A stretch of DNA of 35,316 bases from a virus. Shown here in pieces: positions 11,276 to 28,206 of the stretch (within the stretch, counting starts at the first letter, position 1; the number at the start of each line of letters is the position of its first letter). The notes under the pieces are model-generated. The model did no database searches, was not told the origin of the DNA, and saw only the letters and a list, made by a program, of their open reading frames with translations. The stretch spans positions 1 through 35,316 of IMG/VR virus record IMGVR_UViG_3300031785_000022; one strand, given 5' to 3'. Both the position numbers and the translations under genes were made by a program.

Positions 11276-12682
11276 TTACATAAGGTTTGTAACAGATACT
11301 CTTCTGTAGTAGCGGTTAGCGTTAACAGTAAGTGTTCCTGATCCTTGTGTTGTACCTTGTGAGAATGGGTTCTCAACCATTCCGTAACGAGTCTTAAAGC
11401 CAATTTTTGGTTGGAATGTATCCTGACCAACGGCTCTAACCATCTGTAGTGGAACGTAAGGACAATAGAATAGACCAGCATCGTAAGGTGAAGTACCTTT
11501 GTATCCGATAACATAGTACTGAGTTGCAGCACTGTTTGCAGCGAATGGGTCGATGTACACTCTGTACTTACCGTTGATAACACCAGCAAATGTATTACCT
11601 GTGTCGTCTACGTTTAAGTTAACGTTAAGAGCAGGGGTGTAATCTAGAACACCAGCCATTGTTAATGCAGAAGCAACGTCAGCAGAGCAAAGGATGATGT
11701 TACCCTTTCCACGACGAGTTCTTTGTGCAATAGCGTTTGCATCTCTTTCAATCTGGAATAGAAGTCCTTTGAACTTCTCAACAGACCATCTACCATTTGA
11801 GTCAACGTCTAAGTTGAATGTACCAGCAGATGCTACGTTAACCTGAGCACCAGTCTCAGCAGTTTTGTAGATTGTTCTAATAACTTCTCTGTTGATTTCA
11901 GCAAGAATTTCAGTTGATAGAATGTTTGCTAACTCAGCCTCAGCGTTCAATCCGTGGATTGCCTTAAGGTCTTGAGCTAATTCTAAACTGTACTGTGCCT
12001 TTAGAGCTCTTGACTTTGCAGTCACAGTAACTTTCTCGATTGAGAAAGCCATCTCGTTGAAAGTCTTTCCAGATTCTCCAAGATCTTCTGAGTCATCTGT
12101 TCTCATACCTTGACCAACATCATAAGCAATCTGAGTTGCTGATGTTGAAGGGTTAAGTGCGCCTGGGTTAGTACCTGACTGAGCAGTTGTACCTAAACCA
12201 GTTGCAGCACCAGAGAATCCATCTGTAAGATCGTTCTCTTGGTTCTGTCCAGAGAATGCTGAATCTGGTTCGTTGAATAATGCCTCTGTTCCAAGCATGT
12301 TGTTAGCATTTGTGCCATCAACAAATCTGGATCTCATTGCGAAAATAAGTCCTGTTGGAGCGTTCATTGGTTGAACACCAGCAAGGTCATATGCCACCAA
12401 GTTAGGCATAGATCTTCTAATCAATGAGATTAGAACAGGGTCAAAACCAGCAACAGGGCCAGTTGCTGTTGCACCACCAGAGAAACCAGCACTTGAACCA
12501 GTGTTAGTATTTACTGTTGGAGCTTCTGAGAGGAATGATCTTTCCTCATTTAAAAATCTTTCTTGGTTCTCAAGCAAGACAGCAGTTACCGCTTTACGAT
12601 GATTGTCCTTGATTTCATCAATTCCATCATGCTCTAGAAGGGGCTTCCACTTCTCTTGCAATTGTTCTGCGTTGCCAAACAT
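11276..12682 (-). CDS. 23: gp23 major capsid protein
   Basis: The 468-residue protein has the length of marine T4-like gp23 (T4: 521). Recognisable features are the N-terminal targeting region, RRSMPNLVAYDLAGVQPMN-type and FSIEKVTVTAKSRALKA-type core segments, and a C-terminal MVENPFSQGT. A likely prohead protease site is FLSE/APT (cut after residue 53), matching the T4 [LI]-x-E rule, so about the first 53 residues would be removed on maturation. It forms the hexamers of the head shell. No gp24 vertex-protein gene follows, as is usual for cyanophages. It follows scaffold gp22 after a 50-base gap and is followed by a strong terminator. An AGGT sequence precedes the ATG. Confidence 0.97.
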   Translation of the reverse strand: MFGNAEQLQEKWKPLLEHDGIDEIKDNHRKAVTAVLLENQERFLNEERSFLSEAPTVNTNTGSSAGFSGGATATGPVAGFDPVLISLIRRSMPNLVAYDLAGVQPMNAPTGLIFAMRSRFVDGTNANNMLGTEALFNEPDSAFSGQNQENDLTDGFSGAATGLGTTAQSGTNPGALNPSTSATQIAYDVGQGMRTDDSEDLGESGKTFNEMAFSIEKVTVTAKSRALKAQYSLELAQDLKAIHGLNAEAELANILSTEILAEINREVIRTIYKTAETGAQVNVASAGTFNLDVDSNGRWSVEKFKGLLFQIERDANAIAQRTRRGKGNIILCSADVASALTMAGVLDYTPALNVNLNVDDTGNTFAGVINGKYRVYIDPFAANSAATQYYVIGYKGTSPYDAGLFYCPYVPLQMVRAVGQDTFQPKIGFKTRYGMVENPFSQGTTQGSGTLTVNANRYYRRVSVTNLM

Positions 12683-12732: not shown

Positions 12733-13797
12733 TCACTTTTTAGTGGCATGGGATAGTGCCTGGATGTATGCCGCCATACTACCAGAAACTTCTGGTGATG
12801 CAGCGCTTTCGTTTAACACTTCCGAGTCACTTCTTTTTGGAGCAGTCTTGAAGTATGACTCTTTTAGAGTCTCAAGCTTTTCCTTATAAGATTCTTCACT
12901 TTCAAACTCAACACCTTCGGCAAGTGAAGCGAGCTTTTCCTTCTGAGTGCTTGATAAGCCTTCAGAAACATCGGAAAGGATATTACCACCTGTTGCCTCG
13001 GAGAGACTCTTAGTGATAGTTATGTTCTTCTCGATTTGCTCGTTGAGTTTTGATTCCATTTCGTCAAGTTTGTCTACCATATTCTCAACGACATCATATT
13101 TATCTTCAGGGATTGATACATAATGTTCTTCAAATAGATTTCTCATTCCACTTAGGAATGATTCTGTCATCTCTGACTTAAGACCACGCTCTACTTCGAG
13201 TGCGTTTTCTTGTAACCACTCATCTGCGACGTACTCTAAGTAAGAGTCAACACGCTCGATAAGTTCGTCTTTCATGCCTTCGACCTCTTCTACGAGCTTT
13301 GCTTCGTAGTGAGCTTCCATGGCTTCTCTAAGTTCGGTAACTTTAGACTTTAGAGCAGCCTCGAAAATTGTCTTAGCTTTTTCTCTAAACTCTTCGGAAA
13401 GTTCCTGTCCACCGAGAAGTGCATTAACATCATCATCGATGTCCACTTCATCAGTGATTTCGGGAAGTTCAGTAACTTCCTCTTCAGCAACTTCTTCCTC
13501 AGCGACTACTTCTTCTTCAGAAGTTTGATCTTCTGCAACCACTTCCTCTTCGGTCTCGACTTCTTCCATTTTTGATTTAGCCATGACACCTTTTACTGAT
13601 TTAAGATTTGCTGCATATGATCCTTCACCAGCTGGATCCTTTAATTTATTAGAATCGTCTGTTGGTGAATTGTTTTCTGGAGTTGGGCCACCGAGGTCTT
13701 CATAACTCACGCCTGCCATAGTTTGCATAGGCTCAGCTGGTTTTGCACCCTTGGTTACGGCGTTCTCCATTTCTTGTAAATTTTTCCCACGGGACAT
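12733..13797 (-). CDS. 22: gp22 prohead scaffold protein
   Basis: The 354-residue protein is strongly acidic, with a Glu-rich block at about residues 79-130 and long predicted coiled coils in the second half, as expected of the T4-like head scaffold core. Several [LI]-x-E sites (for example in SLSEATGG and VLNESAAS) suit digestion by gp21 when the scaffold is cleared. It lies in the T4 order between protease gp21 and capsid gp23. Start at 13797 is supported by a GGAGAG ribosome site. A TATAAATA late promoter precedes it. Sequence conservation of gp22 is low, so composition and position carry the call. Confidence 0.93.
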   Translation of the reverse strand: MSRGKNLQEMENAVTKGAKPAEPMQTMAGVSYEDLGGPTPENNSPTDDSNKLKDPAGEGSYAANLKSVKGVMAKSKMEEVETEEEVVAEDQTSEEEVVAEEEVAEEEVTELPEITDEVDIDDDVNALLGGQELSEEFREKAKTIFEAALKSKVTELREAMEAHYEAKLVEEVEGMKDELIERVDSYLEYVADEWLQENALEVERGLKSEMTESFLSGMRNLFEEHYVSIPEDKYDVVENMVDKLDEMESKLNEQIEKNITITKSLSEATGGNILSDVSEGLSSTQKEKLASLAEGVEFESEESYKEKLETLKESYFKTAPKRSDSEVLNESAASPEVSGSMAAYIQALSHATKK

Positions 13798-13845: not shown

Positions 13846-14496
13846 TTAAAGATTTGCTAAGAAATCTTCAAAGACGCTTAATTTCTTTTCGTCTAATTTG
13901 TTTTGATCAACTAGTGTGTTGATGCGTTTGTATGTTTTAGTTGCAATCCTCTCACGAAGTATGCCACCATCCCATACCCAATCCTTTCCTTCCATAATGC
14001 CATCTACGAAAGCGTCTGGAGCAGAAGGATCTGCAACGATATCAGCAGCAGTAGCAAGAGTAAAATCTTCTCCTACTACACTGTATCCTTCGTTAGTCTT
14101 ATTTAAAGACCCTACACCTCTTGATGAAACACCAAGTTTAACACCCTCACCTAATAAATTAGATGCGATCTTACCCATTGGAGTGCTAAGAATCTTTGCT
14201 TTTCCTATAAAGTTATTTCCACTTTCTTTAAGTGAAACAATTTTATGTGATACTCTGTCAAGATTGACAGTCGGGCCATCTGGATGACCTAGTTCTCCAA
14301 GAGCTCTACCTTTATCAACAAAGTTTTCGTTATATCTTCCAACTTCACGAGCAAGAGTCTCCATTGGATACATTCTACCATTACGATTTTTTATTTCACC
14401 TTGAAGGAATACACCTTCAATAAACAGATTCTTCTTACCGTTGCGATTCTCAACAATAACTTCAACCTGTTCTATTTCTTCTGTAATGAGTTTCAT
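13846..14496 (-). CDS. 21: gp21 prohead core protease
   Basis: The 216-residue protein (T4 gp21: 212) shows the herpes-assemblin-like T4 prohead protease pattern. GELGHPDG carries the catalytic His (residue 71), and LGVSSRGVGS (121-130) carries the nucleophile Ser and oxyanion Arg. The N-terminal FIEGVFLQGEIKNRNGRMYP is also characteristic. It cleaves scaffold, capsid and internal proteins after [LI]-x-E sites during head maturation. The ATG at 14496 overlaps the TAA of the preceding gene (TAATG), implying coupled translation. Confidence 0.95.
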   Translation of the reverse strand: MKLITEEIEQVEVIVENRNGKKNLFIEGVFLQGEIKNRNGRMYPMETLAREVGRYNENFVDKGRALGELGHPDGPTVNLDRVSHKIVSLKESGNNFIGKAKILSTPMGKIASNLLGEGVKLGVSSRGVGSLNKTNEGYSVVGEDFTLATAADIVADPSAPDAFVDGIMEGKDWVWDGGILRERIATKTYKRINTLVDQNKLDEKKLSVFEDFLANL

Positions 14497-15056: not shown

Positions 15057-15284
15057 TTACTCTTCCTCTTCGGTTTCTTCAGCATTATCAAGTTCACCAA
15101 CTGTTTCTGATTCTGGTTCTACATCTTCTTCAGATTCAAGTTCATAACCCATCATTGCATTTGCAACAGCAGGTTTAAGAGCATCCACTCTTGCAGTAGC
15201 CTTTGCAAATAATTGATTTTTTATTGAATCACTAATTTCAGATGGAGATTCATCTGCAATCATCAAGTTCATTAATTCATCCAT
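15057..15284 (-). CDS. 67: gp67-like prohead core protein
   Basis: The 75-residue protein has a helical N-terminal half (MDELMNLMIADESPSEISDS...) and a very acidic C-terminal tail of mainly Glu and Asp from about residue 51. T4 gp67 is 80 residues with the same helical-then-acidic layout and the same place after portal gp20. It would be part of the scaffold core and be cut by gp21. A TATAAATA motif precedes it by 27 bases. The match rests on length, composition and synteny rather than strong sequence identity. Confidence 0.75.
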   Translation of the reverse strand: MDELMNLMIADESPSEISDSIKNQLFAKATARVDALKPAVANAMMGYELESEEDVEPESETVGELDNAEETEEEE

Positions 15285-22140: not shown

Positions 22141-22332
22141 TTATGCAGTTTTGATTTTAGTTTTCTTTTTTGTTATAGGAATGGGAAGATTAAAACCAGT
22201 TCCCTTTCTAAATTTTTCTGCACTTTTCATTTTAACATCCGTAGTCCTTATAATGGTATCTTTAGGTTCGTAATGTTTTGGATTAACTGCTGGGCCCATA
22301 TAACCCTCTCTGAATTGTTTAAATGTTTTCAT
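22141..22332 (-). CDS. Small basic protein of 63 residues upstream of gp17
   Basis: The best start is ATG at 22332, sharing one base with the stop of the 1041-residue gene (TAATG). The protein starts MKTFKQFREGYMGPAVNP and ends in a Lys-rich tail (ITKKKTKIKTA). The MKTFKQF opening recurs, as I recall, at the start of several structural-type proteins of marine T4-like phages and may be a targeting or processing signal. No fold or enzyme motif is visible. Coupling to the basic modular protein on one side and gp17 on the other suggests a head or packaging role, as inference only. Confidence 0.65.
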   Translation of the reverse strand: MKTFKQFREGYMGPAVNPKHYEPKDTIIRTTDVKMKSAEKFRKGTGFNLPIPITKKKTKIKTA

Positions 22333-25300
22333 TAGCACTTCCACCTTCTTCGTGCTTGTCTTAATCTACTATTCGGATCTTTTGCAGCCTTTGGAAACTT
22401 CTTCATTTGTCCAGCACTTCTTGCACAATAACTCTTTCTTCTTTTCGCATCTTTAGATCCTTTTTTGACTTTACCAGTCACAGCAGTCTTTAACTTAGAG
22501 CCAGGATTGCGACGACGATATGCTTCAACACCTTTTTGTGTCATTCCAGCACCTTTTTTTGTAGGTCTCTTGTGTCCAGATTTGACACTCATACCTTTCA
22601 TATCATCTTCAGCAACATATTCTTCGGCAGTAGTGGTTGTATGATCCTCATCCTTTTCATTCTTTTTGAGATTTTTTTCTTTTTCTTTTTTTGATATCTT
22701 TGGGCCACCGACTGGATCACCGTACTCATCTCTTTCAACATCTTCACCCATCATCACAGTAGGTTCGCCTGGTTCAAGATCTCTAGGTAAGAATGACATT
22801 ACCTTTGCATCAGGATATAATTTTTGAACTTCTTTCTCAATCTGTTGACGAGTTGGTCTAGAGACAGATGGTACAAACATCTGAACCATATATGTTTTAC
22901 CTCTCCATGTCAATATGACTCTGTAAGTGTGTCCGTTTTTTACTAGACGAGTTTTTGATTCATTAGTTTCCTCAGGCTCTAGGAAGTTAACCTTCTCTTG
23001 ATCCTTCTTTTTCATTACCTTTTTTGCTTCCTTACCAGCGTCTCTTTCTCTAGTGTATTCTGATGAAGACCCTTTCTTTTTTCTTTTAAGAAAAGTAATT
23101 CCTTCTTCTACTTGAGCTTTTTTTTTATCTTTATCTTTATCTTTTTTCTTTTTATCGAACGCTGACATTTGACCTGATGGTTTGCCTGATCCTCTAAAGA
23201 TACCATAAGATGTTCCCTCATCTACCTTGTCACCATTTTTCTTTTCCTTCTTCTTTTGTTCACGATATGTGTCTGCCGTGAATTTTTTAAGTCTCTCTTC
23301 TGCTGCCTTTTTTTGTTCTGGTGTTTCCATATGACTAAGATCTGCATATCCCTTAAATCCTTCACCAGTTAATTGATGAGTTGTTTTATCCTTCACACGT
23401 TGTTGATAATCTTTTTGATTTATTGTGGGAGCGATGATGGGTTTGTTGATAAATTCTTTTGTTTTCTTTATTACTTTCTTACCAACATCTTTGACCGTAT
23501 CTATTATACCCTCATCAACTTTCTCATTTTCAGATTTTTTATTTAGTTGTGATTTATTTACTGATACCCTACGAAATTTCACCCCAGCTTTTGGTACAAG
23601 CACACTTGTCATTTCCTCATCAAATTCAACTTCCTCTTTTTTTACACAGTTATTGTATCTCTTACCAAACATCATCTTAGTGCCTTTCTTTTCATATCCT
23701 TTCCAACACTTCTTTCCAGCTTCATTTAACTCAATCATACCAGCAGCTTCAAGTGCTGCAACTTGCATTGGTGAGAATCCCTCTTTCTTTGTTTTATTAC
23801 CCCAGTTTGCTGCACCAACCTTACGACACTTAACTAAAGCACCAGATGCATATGCACTTGGCCATACAGAGTATCTTGATTTAACTTTATGATAACAGGC
23901 GTCTTTTGTTCCGCTACCCTTACCTTTTTTATCTTTGGCTTCGTTAACAAAACTTTCACTTGTTGGTACGTCTGTATCTATTTTTTTCACAGGTGTAGTG
24001 TTTTTTAATTTTTCTAATGCCTTATCAATGAAACCTGGCTTCTTGATCGGATCACCACCAGATCCAAATTTCTTTTTCTCTGTTATTTTTTCTTCGTTTT
24101 TAATACCCAAATATCTTGTGGTAGCTGGACTTACTTTTTTATTAAATGGTTTAGGTATATTCACTGATCCGCTGCCTGGAGAAATTTTGTTTATGTCATC
24201 AACTCTCTTTTTAGTTTGTCTATTTACAGTATCAACCACATCTTTAGTTAGACGAATAGGATTTGGTATTGGTGTTTTTCCAAGATATCCATCACCCTTT
24301 GTACCTTTAAAGATATTTTCTACGGTGTACTCTTCTTTTTTCATTTTTCTTTTTGGATCAGTAGAAACATTAGTTGGTTTTGCTGCACCTGACTTCTGTG
24401 GTTGATTTGGATCAGCAGCTCTCTTTCTTCTTGCAGCACTATCTCTTTCATTCTTACTCATCGACCTTCTCTTGGAAGATGACACACACTTAGGAGTTGA
24501 TTTCTGGCCAGGCTGTCTTGCACATGGTTTACCATCATACTTACCACCAACTTGAACCCATCCTCTCACCTTACGTCCAGATTTGGTAGTACCACTTGAT
24601 TTACCAAACCAATCACGAAGACCTTCTTCGCTTACATTATATTTATCATCTTCAACACCTTCCATGGCCTGTTTGCGAATCGTTGCAAAATAAACCTTCT
24701 TACCTTCTTCTTTACCATATTGTTTCTGCATGCTCTTTTTCATATCAGACTTATCATATTTTTTCTTCAACATGGTATCTTTTCTCTTCTGTGCTGGAGT
24801 CATGGTCTCCTCCTTTACGCTCTTAGGTTTCTTACCTTTCTTCTTCATATCAATTGCAATCGCAGCTTGTTGTGCAGGGTTTGCTGCTTCGTTCATTTTC
24901 TTAGTTTTCTTTTTCATTGCATTGATGTATTTTCTGTAGACAGCCGCTTCAGAGGTTTTACCCATCTCTCTCGCCCTTTGTTCCATAGCAACAGCCGCTT
25001 GAATCTTATGAGCATGCGATCTAGAAGAATTCCTGATTTTTGAGACAGACGCTTTTGCTTTAGCCACGTCCTTGAAACCAAGTCCATGAATAGTTCCTTT
25101 AGGATCTTCATCAGTATATAAGTCAGAGTGTTTTTTAGATTTTGCTGGTTGTCCTGCTTTTCTTGGAATACGAGGATTTGACTTTTCGTAAATTATCGAT
25201 TCACCCATTCCACCACCGCCATTGCCACCACCATTACCACCAGAACCACCGTTACCATTTCCAGAACCATTCCCGCCGTTCCCATTTCCGTTAGAACTTC

Positions 25301-25457
25301 CGTTACCATTGCCGTTACCGTTACCATTTCCACTATCAGAACGATTATCTCCTCTTGCAAGATATCCACGAGCACCTATGTGATACCCACGAGGAATCTT
25401 CTTACATTTCTTATCTGTAAAACAGTAATATTTGCCTGGCGGACACTTCTTAGCCAT
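22332..25457 (-). CDS. Large Lys/Arg-rich multi-module protein, probable virion/DNA-associated
   Basis: The 1041-residue protein is highly basic and made of short modules joined by disordered linkers. These are a Cys module (residues 1-35, KKCPPGKYYCFTDKKCKK), a Gly/Asn linker (43-84), a helical module (about 106-190), a Cys/basic module (about 279-345, with GKPCARQPGQKSTPKC), another Cys module (about 517-607), a small alpha/beta module (about 834-895, with YRVILTWRGKTYMVQM), and a C-terminal Arg/Lys module (956-1041, SGHKRPTKKGAGMTQKGV start, RRRWKC end) like the DUF6321-type proteins of marine viruses. Similar modules occur alone in marine phages, from memory. Repeated VDEG, VEEG and LNEA junctions look like protease sites. 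A TATAAATA promoter precedes it, so it is late. DNA condensation in the head is a reasonable guess, not shown. Confidence 0.8.
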   Translation of the reverse strand: MAKKCPPGKYYCFTDKKCKKIPRGYHIGARGYLARGDNRSDSGNGNGNGNGNGSSNGNGNGGNGSGNGNGGSGGNGGGNGGGGMGESIIYEKSNPRIPRKAGQPAKSKKHSDLYTDEDPKGTIHGLGFKDVAKAKASVSKIRNSSRSHAHKIQAAVAMEQRAREMGKTSEAAVYRKYINAMKKKTKKMNEAANPAQQAAIAIDMKKKGKKPKSVKEETMTPAQKRKDTMLKKKYDKSDMKKSMQKQYGKEEGKKVYFATIRKQAMEGVEDDKYNVSEEGLRDWFGKSSGTTKSGRKVRGWVQVGGKYDGKPCARQPGQKSTPKCVSSSKRRSMSKNERDSAARRKRAADPNQPQKSGAAKPTNVSTDPKRKMKKEEYTVENIFKGTKGDGYLGKTPIPNPIRLTKDVVDTVNRQTKKRVDDINKISPGSGSVNIPKPFNKKVSPATTRYLGIKNEEKITEKKKFGSGGDPIKKPGFIDKALEKLKNTTPVKKIDTDVPTSESFVNEAKDKKGKGSGTKDACYHKVKSRYSVWPSAYASGALVKCRKVGAANWGNKTKKEGFSPMQVAALEAAGMIELNEAGKKCWKGYEKKGTKMMFGKRYNNCVKKEEVEFDEEMTSVLVPKAGVKFRRVSVNKSQLNKKSENEKVDEGIIDTVKDVGKKVIKKTKEFINKPIIAPTINQKDYQQRVKDKTTHQLTGEGFKGYADLSHMETPEQKKAAEERLKKFTADTYREQKKKEKKNGDKVDEGTSYGIFRGSGKPSGQMSAFDKKKKDKDKDKKKAQVEEGITFLKRKKKGSSSEYTRERDAGKEAKKVMKKKDQEKVNFLEPEETNESKTRLVKNGHTYRVILTWRGKTYMVQMFVPSVSRPTRQQIEKEVQKLYPDAKVMSFLPRDLEPGEPTVMMGEDVERDEYGDPVGGPKISKKEKEKNLKKNEKDEDHTTTTAEEYVAEDDMKGMSVKSGHKRPTKKGAGMTQKGVEAYRRRNPGSKLKTAVTGKVKKGSKDAKRRKSYCARSAGQMKKFPKAAKDPNSRLRQARRRWKC
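25210..25331 (-). repeat. Gly/Asn low-complexity coding repeat
   Basis: Residues 43-84 of the basic modular protein are almost only Gly and Asn with a few Ser, encoded by short GGN-AAY trinucleotide repeats. It is a flexible linker and a likely site of repeat-length change. It is not a CRISPR array. Confidence 0.85.
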
Positions 25458-25479: not shown

Positions 25480-25487
25480 TATTTATA
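25480..25487 (-). promoter_or_regulatory. Late promoter TATAAATA for the basic modular gene
   Basis: Full consensus TATAAATA at 25487-25480 overlaps the last codons of the fibre gene and lies 23 bases before the ATG at 25457. Confidence 0.75.
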
Positions 25488-28206
25488 CTTTTATTGTAGT
25501 CTTAGATAATTTAAATACTGTGGAATCGGCAGACGTAGGTGTTGCACGAAGTCTTAGATTACCACTGTTAATATCAGCGTCAAATGTGGCAAGAACTGCA
25601 CCTGTCCGAATCGTTCCATACTCACTCATAAACGCAACTGTTCCGTTATGAATCACGTTGATTGTTGTCATATGATATTGAGTTCCTCTTGTCACTTGAA
25701 CTTGGAAAGTTGCAGATCGAAATACTGTTGCAGAGATACTTGATATTGTATCTGCACTTGTAGATGTAGTTGTTAAAGTATCACTTGAAAGTGTGACAAT
25801 GCCTGGATCTCCAAGATCCACACCAGCAGATGCGGTCATGATACCAGTTACAGAGATATCATTCTGATCTAGAGATGTAATCGTTCCAGCAACAGATAAG
25901 TTACCACTAATAACTGCATCAACAGCATTTACATTAGTAATAGTAATTGTTGGAGAACCTGTTAAACCTTGAGCACTGACTGCCAGTGTGGCGTTTGATG
26001 CGGTTCCTGTTAAGTCACCAGTTACATCACCAGTTAAATCACCAATAAATGTTGTTGCAGTTGTAGTTCCAGATACGTTTACATTCTGTAGGAAGGTTGC
26101 GTTTGTATTAGTTCTGATATTTTCAGTCGCTGCAATACCAGTTAAGTTTGCACCAGATATCGCTGGTAGTGTAGATGGGAATCTTGCATCTGGTATTGTT
26201 CCTGAATTTAGATTTGATGCATTCAGGGCAGACCCAGTAATAAAACCAGCACCATTAGTAAGTTGGTTGTTATTAGAGGGTATGGTTGGTGTGTTTGTAA
26301 AGTTATTATAGTTAAGATAGTGTGACCCAGCTAAGTCATTAAGTGTTACAGCATTCGCTGCCGTGGTAGCATTAGACGCTGTTCCCGTTAAGTCACCCGT
26401 AAAGCCACCCACAAAACTTGATGCAGTGATAATACCAGATGTGTTAACAGATACAGTGGTTCCAATTCCAACAGACTTAGGAGTTCCAACTGCATCAGTA
26501 AATTCAATCTCACCTTTACTATCTTGTTTGATAGTGATTGTGTTTGCAATACCAATAACAATCTCTTCAAGACCACGAAGTTGTTTTGCAGTTGGGTCAA
26601 GAACAATCGAACCTGTACCAATTGTTAAAATACCAGTGACTCTGGCATCTCCAGTTACTACTAAATCTTCACCATAAACTCCTGTATCTACACCAACATG
26701 AACTTTAGTTGAACTTGTGATACCTGTTGCAAATACATCACCGTCTTTACTCAATGTGATACCACTACCAACTAAAACTCCAGCTCTTGCGGTAACGATT
26801 CCGATTGAGTCTACATTTGTTACATCCTCATATGTTAAGACACCACCAACAGTTACGTTTCCACTGAATGTTCCAGTCGCTGCAGTCAGTCCGTTAATTG
26901 TAATACTTGGTGTCCCTGTTAATCCAGCAGAAGTCCCTGTAATGTTATCACTTGCGGTGATAAAGTTAGCACCGTTTGTGAGTTGATTGGTATTAGTGAA
27001 TGAAGTTGTGATATATCCAGCACCATTTGTCAACTGATTATTGTTTGACGGTATGGTTGGAGTGTTTGAAAAATTATTGTAGTTTAGATAATATGATGCG
27101 TCCTGACTGTTTAACTTGATTGCATTACTTGAATTTATCTGTATCGCATTGCCCATATATCCATGAGATGAGCACTGATAATGAAGAATTGTAGGTGTGG
27201 AATCTGTAACTTCTAAATCAACATAACCTGACCCAACTGTAACTCCTGTTGTATATGCAGTTGCCTTTGCAGCATCAAGATAGAATCGAAATGGATGACT
27301 ACTATTTGAACTGTCTGACACATCAAAACGATATGTTCTGCCAGGAGTAAGTGTAAGAAATGGTGATTGAACATTATCTAAAACATATCCGTTATCACTT
27401 CCACTTCCATAATATCTGTGTTCTCCATCTATCTTACTCGCAACCTTGACTGTGATTGTCTTAGTTGATGCGTGTGGTGCTATTAGATGACTGAATCCTG
27501 AGAACTGTGCAGCAGTGATGATTCCTGATGTGTTTAGACTATCTTGTGTTCCAATCCCTGAAGTAGAACCACCTATAAATTTACCAGTTGACGCTTGATA
27601 TTGAAGAACCTTGCCATCTACCTTTGCACTATCTTCATCAACATCATCAAGCTTTAAAAGATTAACTTCACCAGATCCTGGCCCGTGTGCAAGAACTTTG
27701 TATAATATATCTCTAACTTGTTTGATTTCTGATTTAAGATTATCTAAACTCGTCTCATCTGAATTTTCAATTTCTTCTTTTAGATTTGTTTCCTCAATAA
27801 ACTTAATTGCCTGTGCAACGGTATCACTTATCTTTGGTGTTTTAATCGGTTCTGGTTTGATTAAATCAACAACTTCAAATGATGGATTATCATCAGCGTC
27901 CTCTAAAGAAGACACATCAAAATCTTCAGGCACTCCAACAGTCACTGCTGGTTCTGTGATATCTTTGACTTCTTTTGGATTTTCGATTACATCTATTATC
28001 GAATCTAGTTGTTCAATTAATTTTTCTTCTTTCTTCTTTTGTTTTTTTATGTTTACTTTTGCTTCCTTGATTCCAGTAACGACAGACGAAGTTAGGACAT
28101 CAAGATTGATGTCTGCTTCCTTGAGAAGATTATCAAACTCCTCTTTCTTTTCTTTCTTGGCCTTTCCGAGAAGACTAAAAAATTCTGATAGTTCTGGAGA
28201 TTTCAT
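25483..28206 (-). CDS. Fibre-like virion protein with a cupredoxin domain
   Basis: The 907-residue protein has a charged, coiled-coil N-terminal third (1-175), a linker (LLKLDDVDEDSAKVDGKVLQ), then beta-structured repeats typical of phage fibres. Residues about 243-358 look like a type-1 copper domain: His304 in SSHPF, then Cys345-x2-His348-x2-Met351 in HYQCSSHGYMGN, on a Greek-key-like strand pattern. The rest has repeats of forms GIITAxxFxG, TGDLTGTASNAT and NNQLTNGAGxIT, the last in two similar copies near 374 and 640. It lies between gp16 and the basic modular gene and starts in an ATGA overlap with gp16. Fibre or appendage role is inferred from repeats; the N-terminus would anchor it. 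Confidence 0.8.
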   Translation of the reverse strand: MKSPELSEFFSLLGKAKKEKKEEFDNLLKEADINLDVLTSSVVTGIKEAKVNIKKQKKKEEKLIEQLDSIIDVIENPKEVKDITEPAVTVGVPEDFDVSSLEDADDNPSFEVVDLIKPEPIKTPKISDTVAQAIKFIEETNLKEEIENSDETSLDNLKSEIKQVRDILYKVLAHGPGSGEVNLLKLDDVDEDSAKVDGKVLQYQASTGKFIGGSTSGIGTQDSLNTSGIITAAQFSGFSHLIAPHASTKTITVKVASKIDGEHRYYGSGSDNGYVLDNVQSPFLTLTPGRTYRFDVSDSSNSSHPFRFYLDAAKATAYTTGVTVGSGYVDLEVTDSTPTILHYQCSSHGYMGNAIQINSSNAIKLNSQDASYYLNYNNFSNTPTIPSNNNQLTNGAGYITTSFTNTNQLTNGANFITASDNITGTSAGLTGTPSITINGLTAATGTFSGNVTVGGVLTYEDVTNVDSIGIVTARAGVLVGSGITLSKDGDVFATGITSSTKVHVGVDTGVYGEDLVVTGDARVTGILTIGTGSIVLDPTAKQLRGLEEIVIGIANTITIKQDSKGEIEFTDAVGTPKSVGIGTTVSVNTSGIITASSFVGGFTGDLTGTASNATTAANAVTLNDLAGSHYLNYNNFTNTPTIPSNNNQLTNGAGFITGSALNASNLNSGTIPDARFPSTLPAISGANLTGIAATENIRTNTNATFLQNVNVSGTTTATTFIGDLTGDVTGDLTGTASNATLAVSAQGLTGSPTITITNVNAVDAVISGNLSVAGTITSLDQNDISVTGIMTASAGVDLGDPGIVTLSSDTLTTTSTSADTISSISATVFRSATFQVQVTRGTQYHMTTINVIHNGTVAFMSEYGTIRTGAVLATFDADINSGNLRLRATPTSADSTVFKLSKTTIKV

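Follow-up and report, generated by a model that had tools for sequence, protein, structure and literature searches.

The basic internal proteins IPI, IPII and IPIII are carried in the head of bacteriophage T4, each encoded by one gene and cut once, when the prohead protease gp21 removes an N-terminal targeting propeptide of 10-19 residues after an x-x-E site. The T4 core and scaffold proteins gp22, gp67 and gp68 are single precursors cut at many hydrophobic-x-E sites into pieces that are mostly removed (PMC9026906). Cleavage by T4 gp21 follows the rule L/I-x-E; residues 4 and 7 govern capsid targeting, and residues 8 and 10 govern processing (PMC9026906). In the giant phages phiKZ and SPN3US, related proteases process multiple inner-head proteins after x-x-E, and the residue preferred at P3 varies by lineage (A, S, G); long propeptides come off single proteins there, and the account as consulted here describes no string of interchangeable small modules (PMC5694885). 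Polyvalent proteins of phages and plasmids are multidomain and packaged with DNA, and their authors compare them to polyproteins (PMC5512222). Here we describe a 1041-residue modular basic protein, predicted to be a head polyprotein, encoded in a 35,316-nucleotide stretch of viral DNA (IMG/VR record IMGVR_UViG_3300031785_000022; hereafter the window).

The protein resembles each of these systems in part. As in gp22, gp67 and gp68, one precursor holds many hydrophobic-x-E cuts, here predicted, with a motif excess of the same kind; it differs from them in being basic, in its conserved small modules and in its virion-annotated homologue. Its likeness to the T4 internal proteins is drawn from leaders in small genes rather than from a detailed comparison of the mature parts, and it differs from them in having many modules, with a site at each junction, and no classical leader. 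Polyvalent proteins carry enzymatic domains and often their own peptidase, whereas Pfam and PHROG scans of the window protein found no enzyme domain, only DUF6321, and cutting is proposed to fall to the product of another gene. That the protein works like the T4 internal proteins combined with a gp22-style multi-site precursor is partly supported.

We propose, with a probability of roughly 0.7, that it is a string of internal head proteins that enters the prohead core, is cut by gp21 and leaves its pieces with the packaged DNA. The polyprotein would be made late and taken into the core, and gp21, a Peptidase_S77 enzyme, would cleave behind the Glu of the [V/I/L/M/F]-x-E junctions that separate the modules. 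This would set free some ten to thirteen small proteins or peptides, most of them basic, which would remain with the DNA; one gene would take the place of the several internal-protein genes that T4 keeps apart. The modularity, the conserved junctions, the co-occurrence with S77 and the small genes with leaders (module F and the next open reading frame, ORF), all read at the level of sequence, point in this direction.

Modules and the junctions between them

By similarity over several modules we assign the protein to the T4-GC 119 family: it matches phrog_727 (E 3.7e-85), S-SM2_109 (GC 119) aligns with it at 58.6% identity over 48% of the protein, and DUF6321 (PF19846) is found at residues 969-1039 with 42.8 bits against a curated cut-off of 28.5. 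With tblastn, the number of phage records containing relatives was 409 at E 1e-5 and 446 at 1e-3, and at least hundreds of viral contigs hold them. The databases and papers searched record no function, processing or module structure for T4-GC 119, phrog_727 or DUF6321 proteins; we found no paper on DUF6321, none on a cyanophage head polyprotein as judged by titles and abstracts, and, apart from a review of T4, none that deals with a capsid targeting sequence in cyanophages.

A first-pass annotation of this DNA had described five or six small modules, several of them Cys-containing and Lys/Arg-rich, separated by disordered linkers. The composition agrees (K+R 245 versus D+E 128; 11 Cys), and the modules had been under-counted: at least ten are defined by homology (J, H, I, A, B, C, D, E, F and G) from 157 loci retrieved with two stretches of the protein as queries, beside an extra segment, K, with few relatives (Table 1). 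The relatives show 47 module architectures, with order swaps. Module J, N-terminal here, is C-terminal in S-SSM7_236, and such reordering is expected if each module works alone once freed.

All six [VML]-x-E-[GA] positions in that annotation (residues 188-191, 504-507, 577-580, 647-650, 745-748 and 783-786) are exact, and the protein contains no other match to the pattern. The list was incomplete as a set of candidate junctions, which also includes MGE86|S, VKE216|E, VSE277|E, FDE614|E and VAE950|D. Cuts at all twelve predicted sites would give 13 fragments of 26-229 residues, 12 of which would, if cleavage occurs, have an isoelectric point (pI) of 9.3 or more and match the description "small basic" given to T4 internal proteins; the module F fragment is not basic.

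For junction statistics, upstream contexts were restricted to pairwise identities below 50%. Glu occupies P1 at 91% of module-F and 84% of module-A junctions, a hydrophobic residue occupies P3 at 80% and 66%, respectively, and the residues upstream of P3 are near random. Hydrophobic-x-E stands at a fixed offset before module A in 27/39 contexts, B in 26/49, C in 22/47, E in 5/7 and F in 27/34, against a background of 0.7-2.3%; the hidden Markov model of module G starts inside the domain, and its junction was judged by eye, outside this test. Loss of conservation at the junction residues had been named as grounds for abandoning the polyprotein idea, and the junctions proved to be conserved across heterologous contexts.

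These patterns could also belong to an uncut modular virion protein, whose chain stays whole in the head and whose x-E junctions are linkers or module-shuffling seams: the modules do shuffle, the linkers are E/K-rich with the reversed motif common too, and the junctions are predicted sites. A recombination seam would keep its codons, yet the codons vary at P3, P2, P1 and P1' while the amino-acid pattern holds (GAA and GAG at P1; GTT, GTC, GTA, ATT, ATG and CTT at P3), which places the conservation at the protein level. In 74 non-redundant polyproteins, D, N or Q at P1 is not enriched (ratios 0.7-0.9; K, 1.3). Small-gene versions retain a leader ending in the same site, and modules of phages without S77 lack the site (both described below). 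We regard an uncut chain as unlikely.

In an AlphaFold2 model of the protein, built from a 35-sequence alignment, ordered modules stand between linkers with a predicted local distance difference test (pLDDT) score below 50, and 10 of the 12 junctions fall in ten-residue blocks with a mean pLDDT of 50 or less. The idea that the sites sit in disordered linkers holds for these junctions and fails at E190 and at E579, whose block scores 51. Module B is invariant in sequence, yet its prediction has low confidence. Searching PDB with the whole protein returned low-complexity matches only.

Table 1. Features of the predicted polyprotein and of the associated head genes in the window
Feature	Residues	Window position	Strand	Remarks
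gp23 maturation site FLSE53|A		12521..12532	-	same place as T4 FLTE|A
gp22 scaffold		12733..13797	-	motif-rich; reference substrate
gp21, Peptidase_S77 prohead protease		13846..14496	-	proposed processing enzyme
63-residue ORF MKTFKQFRE|GYMGPAV...		22141..22332	-	start overlaps polyprotein stop (TAATG); capsid-targeting-like leader
1041-residue modular basic protein	1-1041	22332..25457	-	predicted head polyprotein; T4-GC 119 / phrog_727
Module G = DUF6321 (PF19846)	951-1041	22335..22607	-	net charge +26
VAE950|D		22605..22616	-	predicted junction; precedes module G
Module F	834-905	22743..22958	-	beta-beta-alpha-beta fold predicted; encoded alone, with a leader, in S-SSM7 and relatives
TNE833|S		22956..22967	-	off-consensus junction; precedes module F; most relatives V/I/M/L at P3
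Module E (GITFLKRKKK)	786-830	22968..23102	-	
VEE785|G		23100..23111	-	predicted junction; precedes module E
Module D (TSYGIFRGSGKPSG)	748-778	23124..23216	-	
VDE747|G		23214..23225	-	predicted junction; precedes module D
Segment K	650-742	23232..23510	-	partly helical; few relatives
VDE649|G		23508..23519	-	predicted junction; segment with few relatives
FDE614|E		23613..23624	-	possible junction; motif match alone
Module C (KKCWKGYEKKGTKMMFGKRYNNCVKK)	580-608	23634..23720	-	
LNE579|A		23718..23729	-	predicted junction; precedes module C
Module B (SGTKDACYHKVKSRYSVWPSAYASGALVKCRK)	507-557	23787..23939	-	
VNE506|A		23937..23948	-	predicted junction; precedes module B; E506 conservation at least 90%
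Module A (GLRDWFGKS..CARQPGQ..KCVSS)	278-378	24324..24626	-	
VSE277|E		24624..24635	-	predicted junction; precedes module A; E277 conservation at least 90%
Module I (MTPAQKRKDTMLKKKY)	218-268	24654..24806	-	
VKE216|E		24807..24818	-	predicted junction; precedes module I
MNE190|A		24885..24896	-	predicted junction; site 188-191 of the first-pass annotation; at predicted helix end
Module H	120-187	24897..25100	-	SHAHK helical module
MGE86|S		25197..25208	-	predicted junction; weaker support
Linker	38-85	25203..25346	-	disordered, Gly/Asn-rich
Module J (CPPGKYYCFTDKKCKKIP)	1-36	25350..25457	-	Cys-containing

The prohead protease and its candidate substrates

The S77 protease is encoded in the window, and a search of six polyprotein phages found it in every one. 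The protein has two of the features looked for in an S77 substrate, a conserved hydrophobic-x-E before the cut (with V/M, not L/I) and a protease in the same genome.

The broader motif [VILMF]-x-E-[GASE] occurs 10 times in the protein against 3.7 expected by composition, and none of 400 shuffles reached this number. When other window proteins were shuffled within their own composition, gp22 (13 versus 6.9) and gp21 (5 versus 1.9) also exceeded expectation, and TerL, sheath and tube showed no excess; two short ORFs with two matches each likewise score high. Among 117 S-SM2 ORFs of at least 150 residues, the largest motif excess is that of gp21, followed by that of the polyprotein, with gp22 in sixth place, so that an unbiased count selects this protein along with the substrates expected of the protease. 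Over the 74 polyproteins the motif is seen 491 times against 188 expected, and it is about ten times rarer in module cores (82/40537) than in linkers (901/42211). As sequence evidence, we rank the fixed-offset junction test above motif counts.

The first-pass annotation had asked for a comparison with phages in which the modules are separate genes. In five phages of 35-58 kb (C75C1, HTVC027P, HTVC010P, Skadi-7 and CRP-901), small genes of their own encode modules G, B or A, and none of the five has a hydrophobic-x-E site before these modules; an S77 search of C75C1, HTVC027P, HTVC010P and CRP-901 found no such protease (0/4). Set against the polyprotein phages, which have S77, this suggests that the fusion and the sites travel with the protease, in a comparison confounded by phylogeny, all six polyprotein phages being T4-like cyanophages. 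Mosig EXVC030M, considered as a positive control, has a module gene truncated at the end of its record. In Roseobacter phage CRP-901, two unannotated small ORFs (L258:1468-1635 and the next ORF) encode modules B and A as adjacent, separate genes.

Small genes, leaders and virion association

Several small genes carry leaders of the T4 type, for which IPI (MKTFKEF) and IPII/IPIII (MKTYQEFIAE|A) serve as references. The 63-residue ORF next to the polyprotein begins MKTFKQFRE|G, which matches the T4 pattern at positions 4 and 7 and has its Glu at position 9; comparable ORFs adjoin the polyprotein in 11 of the 50 loci with enough sequence. In S-SSM7, module F is a stand-alone small gene that lies immediately upstream of TerL and has the leader MKSFKSINE|E; in the loci found with that gene, small-gene versions of the module carry leaders such as MKRFRTLRE|E. 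A second cargo gene is standalone as MKTFKQFQE|EWSNKYKKSIDC.. and fused inside S-SM2_108 as KTFEEFRE|SWSNKYKKSIDC.., which looks, from its sequence, like a fusion that retained both leader and site. Internal leader-like segments are found in some polyproteins (KKFQDFMDE|GQKCWKGY, SFQQFSE|KCWKGY), and some relatives begin with MKSLN[TI]FIDE|G.

A DNA pattern for the MKTFKQF leader showed no excess over a backwards control in five whole phage genomes, and the leader argument accordingly rests on individual genes and not on counts. In S-SCSM1 the leader pattern matched four ORFs, one of them a virion protein, numbers too small to inform.

Other genes carry comparable leaders. P-SSM4_157 and _158 (L159:3492-4294) and S-SSM7_235 (L259:3948-4313) are small basic genes beside polyprotein genes, and the leaders of this group are MKNFQEFQE|A, MLSFKSFNQLWE|E and MLSFKAYLAE|K. 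The NMNAT-like nucleotidyltransferase (T4-GC 190) begins MKSFFQFLSE|A in S-SM2 (SSM2_161, L168:34761-35987) and MKSFLQFLKE|A in S-SCSM1 (S-SCSM1_91, L251:38819-40048), both close matches to the T4 capsid targeting sequence; such a leader could explain the repeated detection of this enzyme in cyanophage virions. The same x-E sites are in excess in S-SM2 SSM2_162 (L168:35995-37404) and SSM2_067 (L167:2782-3921), and in S-SCSM1_89 (L251:36357-37328) and _92 (40061-41623). The latter two are annotated as virion proteins and lie beside the NMNAT gene, which makes a second cargo island likely.

SSCSM1_29, a homologue of the window protein, is annotated 'virion protein', and S-SCSM1 virion proteins were identified by mass spectrometry (PMC9602691). 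Support for packaging comes solely from the annotation of this homologue. The GC 119 entry of S-SM2 is labelled 'similar to Synechococcus phage S-SM1 protein', a remark otherwise found mostly on structural genes; we tentatively take it to mark the S-SM1 proteome set (PMC3037559).

Fate of the predicted pieces

From these observations we infer the route into the prohead, cleavage, retention, contact with DNA and any role after ejection. The pieces could leave the head before packaging if the protein were a prohead core or scaffold-type substrate like gp22, gp67 and gp68. Its motif excess is of the same kind as that of gp22, and cleavage of T4 core proteins yields many pieces that are mostly lost. 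The protein is, however, strongly basic, as are most of its predicted fragments, its modules are folded (by predicted structure) and conserved, its homologue is annotated as a virion protein, and gp22 is already present next door. We consider this fate quite improbable. A 75-residue protein between gp20 and gp21 (window 15057-15284, minus strand), with a strongly acidic tail and the position and style of T4 gp67, is a possible prohead core protein.

With the same processing, the modules might act mainly as ejected effectors (anti-restriction or takeover) and not in condensing DNA, a variant of the internal-protein proposal that does not exclude it. T4 IPI is an ejected restriction inhibitor, and the targeting sequence is all that is conserved among the otherwise diverse internal proteins (PMC3012670). 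Module F, whose fragment departs from the basic charge of the others, gave a beta-beta-alpha-beta domain when modelled alone (pLDDT 79). Neither by sequence nor by fold did it match anything significantly in PDB: the best fold scores, below the tool's meaningful level, were a ribosomal protein (Z 5.1) and T7 Gp2 (5.0), and the weak matches also included the RNA polymerase epsilon subunit (4.7). Its clear matches, in a viral library, are phage relatives only (cyanophage where named), including the S-SCSM1 virion protein. The T7 Gp2 and polymerase matches would suit an effector, but they are not significant and most fragments are simply basic; we hold a mainly effector role to be possible and tentative.

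The 35 kb of the window belong to a T4-like myovirus of the cyanophage type, with TerL, gp18, gp19, gp20, gp21, gp22 and gp23 in a minus-strand run. The polyprotein gene sits between a tail-fibre gene and TerL, just upstream of TerL with one small ORF between, and in S-SM2 and P-TIM68 the family gene is directly upstream of gp17. A terminase- or neck-associated structural protein would fit this location; gp16 is annotated as a gene of its own in both S-SM2 and S-SSM7, and we consider such a role very improbable. A reading as terminase partner was dropped because the family gene occupies other genome positions in S-SSM7 and P-SSM4, in the latter beside a cytidylyltransferase gene. The tail-fibre-like protein in the window (25483-28206, minus strand) contains a stretch, SSHPFRFYL..ILHYQCSSHGYMGN, that resembles a cupredoxin copper site.

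Several observations weigh against a head polyprotein cut by gp21. P3 in the polyproteins is mostly V or M, while gp23 of these phages keeps L/I, so that the resemblance first noted to the [LI]-x-E rule of gp21 holds for the conserved hydrophobic-x-E and not for the residue preferred at P3. A V-x-E|G site in gp22, kept in 4/5 cyanophages, together with the lineage-dependent P3 of related proteases makes acceptance of V/M plausible. The window protein starts MAKKCPPGKYYC, without a classical capsid targeting leader (aromatic at 4 and 7, hydrophobic at 8, E10), and for this reason we do not file it as a T4 internal protein. The junction before module F is off-consensus in the window copy (TNE833|S), and E190 lies at the end of a predicted helix (pLDDT 89). 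The reversed motif occurs 296 times in the 74 polyproteins, and local E-richness of the linkers accounts for part of the excess. Taken singly, the S-SCSM1 polyprotein shows no enrichment (4 seen against 2.5 expected), and the S-SCSM1 virion proteins listed by mass spectrometry show, as a group of which most are tail proteins, no motif excess (p 0.67). Cleavage by the prohead protease, as first suggested, nevertheless agrees with most of the comparisons made (junctions, core depletion, leaders, S77 co-occurrence), P3 being the part that departs from the T4 rule.

Somewhat less firmly, we think it probable that the scattered internal-protein genes of T4 became a shuffled polyprotein in marine T4-like phages, in which each bead has its own protease site and sometimes a remnant targeting sequence, and one gene delivers a changing cargo set at fixed stoichiometry. 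If the proposal is true, a widespread, unexplained gene family of abundant ocean phages would gain a function, the head-maturation protease would act as a processor of cargo polyproteins, and a simple sequence rule, leader or junction, would serve to find the head cargo of cyanophages.

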